Assembly: GCF_000024885.1 (NCBI RefSeq) | Contig: NC_013512.1 | Location: 124,001 to 188,000 of the forward strand | DNA: 64,000 bases | Direction: 5' to 3' | DNA from: Sulfurospirillum deleyianum DSM 6946 | GTDB taxonomy: Bacteria > Campylobacterota > Campylobacteria > Campylobacterales > Sulfurospirillaceae | In this document: positions 4,667 through 61,062 of the stretch, piece by piece | Numbering within the stretch: the first letter of the stretch is position 1 | Layout: every line of letters starts with the position of its first letter | Notes under the pieces: model-generated | Told to the model about the DNA's origin: nothing | Seen by the model: only the letters and a program-made list of their open reading frames with translations | Databases searched by the model: none | Position numbers and translations under genes: made by a program

Positions 4667-4673
4667 GAGCACT

Positions 4674-57664: not shown

Positions 57665-58033
57665 TTATTTATGGCTACTGCAGGTATGATTTGGGTCAAT
57701 TTTAGCAACATTACCTGCTAAAAATGCACGTAAAGAGTCTTCTAAAATCTCATTTTTATCATCAAAATAGACATCAATACCAAGAGCTAGAAATTTTTTC
57801 AAAGGCTCTCCACCAATACCTCCCACAATCAGAACATCTGCTCCAAGGGATTGAATATTGCTCACGGCATTTTGACATGCACCAGTAACATGTCCAGGGT
57901 TTTTATGAACACTTACATCTTTTACGATGCCATCTTCAACTTTGACAACAGTATAAAAAGTGGCTCGACCAAAATGTGCACCACGTTTGGCACTGAGCCC
58001 ATCATCTTTGGTGGTAGGAAATACAATAATCAT
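57665..58033 (-). CDS. NifX/NifB C-terminal-domain protein (dinitrogenase Fe-Mo cofactor family), copy 2
   Basis: This 122-residue protein has the ribonuclease H-like NifX/ORP fold: H-F-G-R-A-T-F-Y-T-V near residues 19-28, a G-A-C-Q-N-A region, and G-A-D-V-L-I-V-G-G-I-G near 64-74. Family members bind Fe, Mo or mixed Mo-Cu-S clusters. A C-terminal H-x-C-S-S-H tail could bind metal. It is last in the DUF134-ATPase-NifX operon, 50 bases after copy 1. No nitrogenase genes are present, so I do not infer nitrogen fixation. Confidence 0.85.
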   Translation of the reverse strand: MIIVFPTTKDDGLSAKRGAHFGRATFYTVVKVEDGIVKDVSVHKNPGHVTGACQNAVSNIQSLGADVLIVGGIGGEPLKKFLALGIDVYFDDKNEILEDSLRAFLAGNVAKIDPNHTCSSHK

Positions 58034-58083
58034 AACTTAACCTTTTATTTATTTTTTAGAATAGTTATTTTAACGCTTTTAAA

Positions 58084-58422
58084 CTAAAACTTTTCCAGTG
58101 CACCATCTTGATAGGCTTTGTACGCTTCTGCCACACTCATTTCACCCGCACCAACATAAACAACCGTATTCATTTGCGCCAATACCGCACGAGCATTTTC
58201 TCCAGGACCATTGCCTGTAATAATGACATCCACACCTAAATCTGCCATTACTTTTGCCATTTTAGGACCTGCACCGTGTTCTTGATTGACAATTTCACGG
58301 TTATCATGAATCGTAATTTGACCACTTTGCTCATCAAAAACAAGGACATAATACGTACGTCCAAAACGTGCTTCCATCATGGATTCCCATGCAGGGTCTT
58401 TGGTTGTAAAAGCTATTTTCAT
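58084..58422 (-). CDS. NifX/NifB C-terminal-domain protein, copy 1
   Basis: This 112-residue protein is of the same family: A-R-F-G-R-T-Y-Y-V-L near residues 18-27, H-G-A-G near 49-52, and G-V-D-V-I-I-T-G-N-G-P-G near 62-73. It lacks the Cys/His tail of copy 2. It starts 1 base after the stop of the ATPase gene. Two NifX-like proteins beside two MinD-type ATPases match the ORP-complex type of gene cluster. Confidence 0.85.
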   Translation of the reverse strand: MKIAFTTKDPAWESMMEARFGRTYYVLVFDEQSGQITIHDNREIVNQEHGAGPKMAKVMADLGVDVIITGNGPGENARAVLAQMNTVVYVGAGEMSVAEAYKAYQDGALEKF

Positions 58423-58423
58423 T

Positions 58424-59302
58424 TTATACTCCTAATGTATTTTTTATGGTTTCAAAACTCTCTTCAAGTAACTTTTTTAAAGGCTCATCGCTGTATTCGG
58501 TAATGGTTTTTGCTTCAACCATCGCTTGTGTAAAGGCTTTGTTGTAAGGAATACTCTTTACATGTAAAATGGATTCTTCTCTCAAAAAGGCTTCAATCTG
58601 CGCACACACTTCAGGATTTAAATCGGCTTTGTTAATAATACATCCTGCTTTAATACGAAATTTTTTCACGACTTCATAGACCCGTTTTAAATCATGTAGC
58701 CCTGAAAGCGTTGGCTCGGTTACGAGTAAGGCAAAGTTAGCCCCACTTAAGGAAGAGACCACAGGACAGCCAATGCCAGGTGAGCCATCCACAATCATCA
58801 ACGATTTATTTTTTGCTAAGGCAATGGCTTTGCCCTCTTTTTTAACTTTAGCGACCAGTTTACCTGAATTTTCAGCACCAATACCCAGTTTTGCATGCAC
58901 CATGTCGCTTCCGTATTTGGTTTGAGATGTAAACCATGCTCCTGCCAAACGCTCATTCATCGAAATAGCATTGAGTCGGCACACTTTTTCACAGTATCCA
59001 CACCCTTCACACGAGAGCTCATCCACAACATAACGACCATTTTCTAAGACAATCGCATCAAAACGGCACACCTTTGCACATCGTCCGCAATTACGGCAGG
59101 TCTCAGGATCAATGTGGGCTAAAACACCGCTGTAAAAATCCTCTTTGTGATCAAAATCTGGCTGAAGTAAAAGGTGCATATCCGCTGCGTCTACATCACA
59201 ATCCACAACCACACATGCATCTTTGGCTAAACTTGCCAGCGCTGCGGTAATGGAGGTTTTTCCCGTACCGCCTTTGCCTGAAATGACGACAATCTCTTTC
59301 AT
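58424..59302 (-). CDS. MinD/Mrp-type ATPase with internal 2x[4Fe-4S] ferredoxin domain (ATPase B)
   Basis: This 292-residue P-loop ATPase of the MinD/Mrp deviant-Walker class (S-G-K-G-G-T-G-K-T-S at residues 8-17) is interrupted at about residues 65-110 by a ferredoxin insert with two C-x2-C-x2-C-x3-C sets (C-R-N-C-G-R-C-A-K-V-C and C-E-G-C-G-Y-C-E-K-V-C). Such proteins act in Fe-S or metal-cluster handling and in ORP complexes. It overlaps ATPase A by 4 bases, so the two probably form a heterodimer. One TTACATGTAA encodes L-H-V-K. Confidence 0.88.
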   Translation of the reverse strand: MKEIVVISGKGGTGKTSITAALASLAKDACVVVDCDVDAADMHLLLQPDFDHKEDFYSGVLAHIDPETCRNCGRCAKVCRFDAIVLENGRYVVDELSCEGCGYCEKVCRLNAISMNERLAGAWFTSQTKYGSDMVHAKLGIGAENSGKLVAKVKKEGKAIALAKNKSLMIVDGSPGIGCPVVSSLSGANFALLVTEPTLSGLHDLKRVYEVVKKFRIKAGCIINKADLNPEVCAQIEAFLREESILHVKSIPYNKAFTQAMVEAKTITEYSDEPLKKLLEESFETIKNTLGV

Positions 59303-60165
59303 TGCGCAGCTCCTTGAAAACGTGCTTTTACATGTAAAGCTATTTTTTCGATTTCATCTTTGAAAGATGGAATCTCTTTATAGATAAGTTTTCCCGCCGA
59401 ATAGAGCTTTGCTGCTTCAATCAAATGAGGAATTTTTCCAATAATAGGGATGTTTTCTCTTTGGCAATACGCTACAACATCTTCATTTCCCATACCATAA
59501 CGGTTAATGACCACTCCAAACTCTTTTCCTAAAATGCGTGTCGTCTCAACCGCAAGGGTTAAATCGTGCAAACCAAAAGGAGTGGGTTCAGTCACTAAAA
59601 TGACAAAATCAGCATCTTTAATCGCCTCAATCACAGGGCAAGACGTCCCTGGAGGTGAATCAAAAAGCTTCATGGTTTCATCATCAAAATGTTGATCAAC
59701 ATATTTTTTAGTCTGCGCAATCAATGAGACGGCTTGTTCCTCTCCGATATTTAAACGACCTTCTACAAACTCAATATCCCCTGCAAGAAAATGGCTCAGT
59801 TCGCCCATTTTTTGAGGTTCCATCGGCAGTGAACCCATAGGACAAAGCTCTGAACAGGCATAACAGCTGTGGCAGAGATTGGGGAAGATTAAAATCTCAT
59901 TGGCAAGGCAAAGAAGGGCATTAAAATTACAGTTTTCAATGCATTCACCACACAGGGTACATGAAGTGCTATCCCAACGAGGAATCATCTTCATTTTATC
60001 CTCTTTGCGTAAGAGTTCGCCTTGTAAAAAAAGATTGGAATTGGGTTCTTCCACATCCAAATCAACCAAAACAGTGCTTTGACTCTCCCCTAAAAATGTT
60101 GCAAGATTGGTGGAGAGGGTTGTTTTCCCTGTTCCACCTTTACCACTGGCTATGGCTATTTTCAT
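59299..60165 (-). CDS. MinD/Mrp-type ATPase with internal 2x[4Fe-4S] ferredoxin domain (ATPase A)
   Basis: This 288-residue paralogue of ATPase B has A-S-G-K-G-G-T-G-K-T-T at residues 5-15, then the ferredoxin insert with C-T-L-C-G-E-C-I-E-N-C and C-H-S-C-Y-A-C-S-E-L-C-P, and the D-S-P-P-G-T-S-C-P switch region (about residue 158). The reading frame is open 28 codons further upstream, but the ATG at 60165 starts the P-loop strand directly and overlaps the zinc-ribbon stop by 4 bases. Lysine 7 is the deviant Walker A lysine used for dimer contacts. Confidence 0.88.
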   Translation of the reverse strand: MKIAIASGKGGTGKTTLSTNLATFLGESQSTVLVDLDVEEPNSNLFLQGELLRKEDKMKMIPRWDSTSCTLCGECIENCNFNALLCLANEILIFPNLCHSCYACSELCPMGSLPMEPQKMGELSHFLAGDIEFVEGRLNIGEEQAVSLIAQTKKYVDQHFDDETMKLFDSPPGTSCPVIEAIKDADFVILVTEPTPFGLHDLTLAVETTRILGKEFGVVINRYGMGNEDVVAYCQRENIPIIGKIPHLIEAAKLYSAGKLIYKEIPSFKDEIEKIALHVKARFQGAAQ

Positions 60166-60443
60166 TGTTGTACCGCAGTGTTTTTTTGTTGGACGAGTTC
60201 TTCTCTCACAAGGGTATGACCACATGCAGGGCATTTTTGTGTGGTGCATTTAACCCCTCTTTCATGAGGTACTTTTTCACCGCATTTGGTGCAGACACAA
60301 AAGCCACCCATGCCAAAAGCTCCACCATTGTTTCGACCACCACCCATATTTCCTTGATTGCCGTTACCTCGCATATTTGCACCACGTCCGCCATTTTGAT
60401 TCATACCGTTTCCACAACGGTTCGCTTTGTTTCTTCCAAACAT
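60162..60443 (-). CDS. Gly/Asn-rich zinc-ribbon protein
   Basis: This 93-residue protein has a low-complexity Gly/Asn/Met-rich N-terminal half (N-G-G-R-G-A-N-M-R-G-N-G-N) and a zinc ribbon in the second half (C-V-C-T-K-C-G-E-K-V and C-T-T-Q-K-C-P-A-C-G-H). Small proteins of this kind accompany NifX/MinD clusters in several anaerobes. It is probably a metal-binding or scaffold partner of the complex encoded here. AAAGGAAACAAA precedes the ATG. Confidence 0.75.
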   Translation of the reverse strand: MFGRNKANRCGNGMNQNGGRGANMRGNGNQGNMGGGRNNGGAFGMGGFCVCTKCGEKVPHERGVKCTTQKCPACGHTLVREELVQQKNTAVQQ

Positions 60444-60531
60444 TTTGTTTCCTTTGTTATTGATCGTACCATTTTCATCTTATCAGGGGATAAAAATGGT
60501 TTAAAATAAGGTTATTCCAAGCCTTTAGTAC

Positions 60532-60978
60532 TCATTTTTGAACTCTTTCGTGGCAACATCGTCCATGCCCAAAGCCTCTGGCAAAATTGACCAAGTGGCT
60601 CGAGTGACACAAAGGACATTGCTCATGTTCTTCGTGCAGACTCGCTTTGAAAATATGGCGACACTCCACACATCGATAAAGATTCTCTTTAAAATGAATA
60701 CTCCCACCACCAATCGTTAGCTTTGATCCAGTAATCAGCATTGAAGCTACTTTTTTACGCGCACGTTCTACCAATCGTGTAAACGTTGAGCGTGAAATTC
60801 CCATTGCTTCAGATGCTTGTTCATGCTCAAATCCCTCATGATCTGCCAAGCGAATCGCTTCGTATTCATCGAGTTCAAGCACAATCGTTTCAAGTTTGTC
60901 TCCAATCACTCCTGCTGGTTTAAATGTTGTAAACAGCGGAGGATGACTGACCACTCTCTCTTTTGGATTTCTAGCCAT
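60532..60978 (-). CDS. DUF134 family DNA-binding regulator with C-terminal zinc ribbon
   Basis: This 148-residue protein of the UPF0251/DUF134 family has a sigma-70 region-4-like helix-turn-helix (D-E-Y-E-A-I-R-L-A-D and Q-A-S-E-A-M-G-I-S-R-S-T-F near residues 54-88) and a C-terminal zinc ribbon (C-V-E-C-R and C-P-L-C-H). The frame extends to 61023, but the ATG at 60978 matches the family start (M-A-R-N-P) and has AGGAA before it. It is first in the NifX/ATPase operon, and its promoter carries two palindromic sites, so I infer autoregulation. Confidence 0.85.
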   Translation of the reverse strand: MARNPKERVVSHPPLFTTFKPAGVIGDKLETIVLELDEYEAIRLADHEGFEHEQASEAMGISRSTFTRLVERARKKVASMLITGSKLTIGGGSIHFKENLYRCVECRHIFKASLHEEHEQCPLCHSSHLVNFARGFGHGRCCHERVQK

Positions 60979-61009
60979 GAAAGTTCCTATTTCCTTATAA
61001 GGTTTCGCC

Positions 61010-61039
61010 ATTATAATACACATATGTGCATAATGTCAA
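61010..61039 (-). promoter_or_regulatory. Promoter of the DUF134-ATPase-NifX operon
   Basis: On the reverse strand, TTGACA (61039-61034) and TATAAT (61015-61010) are separated by 18 bases, 31 bases before the DUF134 ATG. Both hexamers are perfect consensus, so control is probably by repression. Confidence 0.8.
61019..61028. promoter_or_regulatory. Operator-like palindrome CACATATGTG in promoter spacer (site 1)
   Basis: A perfect 10-bp palindrome between the -35 and -10 hexamers; binding here would block RNA polymerase. It is identical to the core of site 2. Confidence 0.75.
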
Positions 61040-61048
61040 GAGTAAATA

Positions 61049-61062
61049 TGCACATATGTGCA
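61049..61062. promoter_or_regulatory. Operator-like palindrome TGCACATATGTGCA upstream of -35 (site 2)
   Basis: A 14-bp perfect palindrome sharing CACATATGTG with site 1. Centre-to-centre distance is 32 bp, about three helical turns, so two dimers could bind on the same face. Confidence 0.75.

Follow-up and report, generated by a model that had tools for sequence, protein, structure and literature searches.

A DUF134 regulator with a predicted operator at an ORP-like ATPase and NifX operon of Sulfurospirillum deleyianum

Gene clusters of the orange protein (ORP) type are found in many phyla, mostly in anaerobic lineages, and their function has been studied mainly in Desulfovibrio. We report here on a six-gene operon of this kind, which encodes a regulator of the DUF134 family, a zinc-ribbon protein, two ferredoxin-MinD ATPases (A and B) and two NifX-like proteins, and on a palindromic DNA site at its promoter. 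The operon lies in a 64,000-nucleotide stretch, hereafter the window (G000:C1:124001-188000), of the complete genome of S. deleyianum DSM 6946 (2,306,351 bp, Campylobacterota). As a whole the evidence is best explained by an ORP-type metal-sulfur cofactor system that is run by its own DUF134 regulator, a reading in which we place somewhat better than even confidence. The predicted link between DUF134 and the operator is well supported, and DUF134 would be a dedicated autoregulator of the system, probably repressing it; the cofactor, the substrate and the sign of regulation are what we infer from these data. An initial annotation of the window had described the six genes but the operator went unnoticed, and it is the regulation that is new in the present work.

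The DUF134 regulator and its predicted operator

The operon is read from a sigma70 promoter that is the sole perfect (12/12) one in the region. This promoter holds two copies of GCACATATGTG[C/T], near-identical palindromes of which one falls within the spacer between the -35 and -10 hexamers and the other, the predicted upstream operator, about 10 bp above the -35 hexamer, and GCACATATGTG is found nowhere else in the whole 2.3-Mb genome. The double ACATATGT operator, our membership test for the proposed DUF134 regulon, is thus present at the operon promoter, and both double sites of the host genome fall at its two DUF134 loci. In relatives the operator core also stands upstream of DUF134, commonly inside or next to the -35/-10 elements. 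At the second DUF134 locus of the host (G000:C1:2044347-2045304; L046, L216), a gene for a DUF134-NifX fusion is divergent from that of a 166-amino-acid NifX protein, with the double operator between the two.

Across the collected loci, ACATATGT was found at most 250 bp upstream of DUF134 in 32 of 59 cases, compared with 30 of the 1274 other open reading frames (ORFs) of those loci (p about 5e-31) and with a mean of 0.5 in a shuffle control. A matrix trained on 41 Campylobacterota sites only (consensus TTTGAACATATGTTCAAA) was tested on held-out phyla, where 16 of 28 DUF134 upstream regions scored above the 95% control level as against 23 of 453 controls (p=2e-12); three of the top-scoring 'control' matches lie upstream of NifX genes, in clusters that have DUF134 as their last gene (L094, L129, L092). 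When 200 Campylobacterota genomes were searched for the double site, blind to gene positions, 11 sites were returned from nine genomes, every one of which is DUF134-positive (p=4e-10). DUF134 promoters account for nine of them; of the other two, one belongs to an unlinked NifX gene and the last is flanked by DUF4405 and DUF2202 genes.

Control also appears to be exerted in trans. Three genomes carry DUF134 and the ATPase operon on separate contigs, with the operator upstream of the ATPase operon (G124, G387, G374); a Calditrichaceae genome (G407) has a second double site ahead of a second DUF134-NifX pair; and in three Planctomycetota loci (L205, L207, L210) operator-type palindromes stand just upstream of ARMT1-like (DUF89) genes, which are followed in two of the three by DUF5320, zinc-ribbon or NifX genes. 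That the site recurs at unlinked operons across genomes indicates that it follows gene families and not one locus. One other unlinked operator precedes a rhodanese/TauE pair in a single genome. A nitrogenase K-like gene, hydrogenase-maturation-like genes, cydA and sensor-kinase genes also have operator-like sites within or close to them, which we take as chance or unproven. The NifX gene that is unlinked to DUF134 and has a double site in front of it (L156:1532-2041, G086:C11) encodes a protein with a Gly/Arg-rich tail, a sign that NifX and the Gly-rich partner can be joined in a single protein.

The regulator matches PF02001 (DUF134) with 76.3 bits, the gathering cut-off being 27. In its AlphaFold model (predicted local distance difference test, pLDDT, 88), the helix-turn-helix (HTH) matches the sigma region 4 that binds -35 DNA (5fgm, root-mean-square deviation 0.5 over 47 columns; 2h27); no significant structural match was obtained with the whole chain. 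DUF134 proteins have tails of three kinds, namely a Cys ribbon (ending in GHGxCC in the window protein, and of the form CxxC...CPxC in numerous relatives), a fused NifX domain (L041, L042, L045, L046, L191), or none, and those without a tail often have a separate NifX gene adjoining. One of the fusions (L191:3481-4263, 260 amino acids) is encoded at the head of an A-B-NifX operon of a Campylobacterota genome. The fusions suggest a NifX-type sensor for DUF134 and, together with the adjoining NifX genes, point to a regulator that would read a NifX-bound or Cys-bound metal-sulfur unit. For PF02001 (DUF134/UPF0251, COG1342) our search found no published function or operator, which does not prove their absence from the literature, and the same search, with the same limit, found nothing on the function of DUF5320; nor were the regulator-operator pair, its conservation across phyla or the NifX-fused regulators found in the literature searched.

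Operon layout, gene products and distribution

Gene calls and Pfam confirm the six minus-strand genes (57665-60978) in the order first described, the zinc-ribbon protein being the exception in Pfam (Table 1). The 4-bp overlaps are likewise real, but 'several' slightly overstated them, as just two are present (zinc ribbon/ATPase A at 60162-60165 and ATPase A/B at 59299-59302); gaps of 1 bp separate ATPase B from NifX1, 50 bp NifX1 from NifX2 and 88 bp DUF134 from the zinc ribbon. The DUF134 start was corrected to 60978 because the listed ATG at 61023 falls between the promoter hexamers, and the start of ATPase A is 60165. In Pfam both ATPases match MinD/CbiA plus Fer4, and the two NifX-like proteins match PF02579 (Nitro_FeMo-Co) with 56.6 and 54.0 bits (cut-off 26.3). 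Since the gene order is found again in other phyla, at an ATPase B identity of 53-64%, the gene set is far beyond chance.

Table 1. Genes and predicted promoter elements of the operon (window positions)
Feature	Position	Strand	Remarks
Upstream operator	61050..61061		palindrome GCACATATGTGC; centre-to-centre distance to the second operator 32 bp
-35 hexamer	61034..61039	-	TTGACA; 12/12 sigma70 match together with the -10 hexamer, 18-bp spacer
Second operator	61018..61029		GCACATATGTGT; within the -35/-10 spacer; kept in relatives
-10 hexamer	61010..61015	-	TATAAT; part of the 12/12 sigma70 promoter
DUF134 regulator	60532..60978	-	148 amino acids; sigma-region-4-like HTH, C-terminal CxxC...CxxC ribbon, HGRCCH tail
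Zinc-ribbon protein	60162..60443	-	93 amino acids; Gly/Asn-rich head and zinc ribbon (C49, C51, C54, H60, C66, C71, C74)
ATPase A	59299..60165	-	288 amino acids; MinD/ParA fold, signature Lys K9, two CxxCxxCxxxC clusters, C176 past switch II
ATPase B	58424..59302	-	292 amino acids; architecture as ATPase A, signature Lys K10, invariant C179
NifX1	58084..58422	-	112 amino acids; NifX/ORP fold
NifX2	57665..58033	-	122 amino acids; closest to TM1816 (1t3v/1o13), C-terminal HTCSSH tail

Both ATPases have the ferredoxin-MinD architecture, with an inserted 2x[4Fe-4S] ferredoxin and a deviant Walker A motif with its signature Lys. Conservation of this Lys, of the eight ferredoxin Cys and of a ninth Cys past switch II (C176 in A, C179 in B) is 99-100% over 82 A and 93 B sequences. 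ATPase A is encoded directly ahead of B in 52 of 69 loci, and a Spirochaetales bacterium has a natural A-B fusion of 621 amino acids (L115:5041-6906); this order and the fusion argue for an A-B pair. The AlphaFold model of ATPase B (pLDDT 95) finds its best match in MinD, followed by nitrogenase Fe protein, DPOR L and Cfd1/ApbC. By analogy with NifH, in which a Cys at what would be the corresponding position binds the bridging cluster, the ninth Cys may have a binding or relay role at the A-B interface.

Among the PDB matches of NifX1 the D. gigas ORP, 2wfb, ranks third (E 3e-6), and NifX2 is closer to TM1816. The H-x-C-S-S-H tail that had been remarked on in one of the two proteins is real (H-T-C-S-S-H, in NifX2), and its C-x-x-H core recurs in relatives. 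Neither the zinc-ribbon protein of the window nor the members of its family that were tested reach the cut-off of any Pfam or NCBIfam model. This family, a Gly-rich head followed by C-x-C-x2-C...H-x5-C-x4-CPxCG, is found in 35 ORFs of the set (that of the window and 34 in other loci), and the protein is a conserved small partner and no peculiarity of this one locus. The view that the operon has no nitrogenase genes beside it extends to the whole host genome, in which NifD/NifK (PF00148) found no match in a search that was positive in control genomes. Another genome of the genus (G206) holds what reads by sequence as a nitrogenase K/G-like gene pair (L219:1971-3756).

The initial annotation had considered a distinct system in Campylobacterota, and this finds no support: the system is rare there (16 of 397 genomes), and the same cluster, zinc-ribbon protein included, is found in Calditrichota, Bacteroidota, Chloroflexota, Planctomycetota, Omnitrophota, Bacillota, archaea and others. 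The 80 loci kept for relatives of ATPase B, at 45-64% identity, come from over 20 bacterial and archaeal phyla, and A, B and NifX genes usually occur in them as a set. The co-occurrence that the annotation had proposed to look for was borne out for DUF134, which is present in 16/16 Campylobacterota genomes with ATPase B and in 22/200 of a sample of the phylum. ATPase B of the window is nearer to Calditrichota/Bacteroidota-like lineages (mostly 58-64%) than to most other Campylobacterota, and the ATPase tree places the window in a supported clade of 30 rows (100/94) which holds two Campylobacterota groups along with Calditrichota, Bacteroidota, Spirochaetota and others. The tree leaves a single origin of the two Campylobacterota groups undecided; nor does it resolve a transfer into the genus from Calditrichota/Bacteroidota-like donors, for which three label changes, two of them forced, were counted.

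Apart from the operon, the window is rich in a 12-bp palindrome, TTTACATGTAAA, which occurs 10 times (at 4673, 8166, 10883, 23914, 27982, 45980, 54731, 56711, 58557 and 59327) as against 0.01 expected. Over the whole host genome 566 copies were counted, and 0 of the reversed control; the counts were 14-788 in the 12 other genomes of the genus that were searched and 0-1 in eight other genera. The repeat lies inside and between genes, like the cyanobacterial HIP1, and we found no mention of it in such a role in the literature searched.

Proposed mechanism and alternative explanations

In the mechanism that we propose, DUF134 would bind the palindrome [A/T]TGNACATATGTNCA[A/T], often at two sites about 23-34 bp apart, and would thereby govern the operon that encodes it as well as NifX, Gly-rich and ATPase operons that are unlinked to it in other genomes; computationally this step is well supported. 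As the promoter is a perfect sigma70 one and has one of the sites in its -35/-10 spacer, DUF134 is read as a repressor that would keep RNA polymerase out as long as no metal-sulfur signal is sensed. Sensing would fall to its own Cys ribbon in the present case and, for other DUF134 proteins, to a NifX domain that is either fused or separate. ATPases A and B may form a MinD/NifH-like heterodimer, for which we infer that electrons or Fe-S units leave the two ferredoxin inserts under the gating of ATP turnover and pass through the ninth Cys to the NifX carriers, these in turn holding a metal-sulfide or Fe-S unit. That cargo may be Fe-S, Mo-Cu-S or another sulfide. More tentatively, and with a probability well short of even, DUF134 and NifX could constitute a metal-sulfur cofactor sensor common to anaerobes of several phyla, in which the loading of a NifX-type domain, fused or separate, is read and the ATP-driven ORP-type pathway is tuned through the conserved ATGNACATATGTNCAT operator.

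That ACATATGT is an unrelated site, belonging to another factor or left by a restriction/modification system and near these genes by chance, we consider highly improbable. Its cognate protein is predicted only, and other regulators with CATATG-centred sites may exist, but the double site is confined to DUF134-containing genomes (9/9), and the palindrome tracks its target genes to unlinked places and is kept in held-out phyla. Activation by DUF134 is a stronger contender, though still an unlikely one: a sigma-region-4-like HTH that matches the -35-binding sigma region 4 (5fgm, 2h27) could recruit RNA polymerase from the upstream site, placed as it is just above the -35 hexamer, yet the promoter already has the full consensus and the downstream site is in the spacer, where an activator would obstruct.

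As to function, the ATPases could position the septum, as has been proposed for D. vulgaris (PMC3897727, PMC6345978), in a true ORP cell-division system. The core proteins match and the top structural matches of ATPase B are MinD, but similarity to MinD is common to the whole ATPase class, MrpORP is absent, the control differs and presence in 16 of 397 Campylobacterota genomes argues against a core role in division, so that we think this improbable. A role in metal (Mo/Cu/Fe) stress or storage and not in maturation, with NifX proteins that sequester thiometallates or excess Fe-S, is possible, if clearly the less probable outcome. ORP binds a Mo-Cu sulfide cluster (PMC6345978 and references), and unlinked operators occur between the DUF4405/DUF2202 genes and upstream of the rhodanese/TauE pair; these extra sites, however, are in one genome each, and storage has no obvious need for two ferredoxin ATPases.

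Several observations weigh against a cofactor system under DUF134 repression. DUF134 is within the fetched stretch at only 30 of the 80 ATPase-B loci, so that the remainder must be under other regulators or under DUF134 genes that are unlinked to them; sigma54 activators (GAFTGA-type motif) were tried as the replacement and were found at only three DUF134-less clusters. About half of the DUF134 loci outside Campylobacterota lack a clear site, and the operator counts are not independent events, as the loci share kinship. The spacer position favours repression and is no proof of it. There is only one clean A-B fusion (L061 has N at the junction), and the ninth Cys is equated with the cluster ligand Cys132 of NifH by analogy, not by alignment.

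If the reading of a DUF134-run cofactor system holds, the operator gives a family of unknown function a testable job and a defined DNA site, with target prediction in any genome, and ties NifX, Gly-rich, zinc-ribbon and A-B ATPase genes into one regulon even where they are scattered. Identifying the condition that relieves the control would reveal the signal, and with it the function, and the invariant ninth Cys of both ATPases, with the natural A-B fusion, makes a concrete biochemical hypothesis for the pair.

Comparison with known systems

The fold of ATPases A and B and their deviant Walker A motif with signature Lys are common to the MinD/NifH/Mrp-ApbC class, from which the two differ in the inserted 2x[4Fe-4S] ferredoxin and the invariant single Cys past switch II. 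NifX1 and NifX2 share fold and family with the PF02579 proteins (NifX/NifB C-terminus/NafY; MTH1175, TM1290, TM1816), but unlike NifX/NifY of nitrogen fixation they occur in a host without a nitrogenase subunit, and their operon partners are MinD-type ATPases.

The ORP core of D. vulgaris consists of two ferredoxin-MinD ATPases and a NifX-fold protein (PMC6345978), and a putative role in septum positioning has been published for its genes (PMC3897727, PMC6345978). The logic of ORP clusters that the initial annotation had seen in the operon stands as far as this core goes: two ferredoxin-MinD ATPases of the Orp3/Orp4 type, each with two [4Fe-4S] ferredoxin motifs, are encoded in an anaerobe together with a NifX-fold protein of the Orp8 type, which matches 2wfb. 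It does not stand for MrpORP (Orp9, a fusion of Mrp and NifX), which is not in the host genome and which none of eight genomes (0/8) showed over the cut-off, the host Mrp covering model positions 3-255 only, the ATPase half. Nor does it for the control, as real orp operons have sigma54 promoters, a DVU2106-type activator and IHF (PMC3897727), whereas here a perfect sigma70 promoter carries a predicted DUF134 operator; a zinc-ribbon protein and a second NifX protein are also extra to the D. vulgaris set. Because it is without MrpORP and its promoter is sigma70, not sigma54, the gene set is ORP-like and not an ORP cluster in the strict sense.

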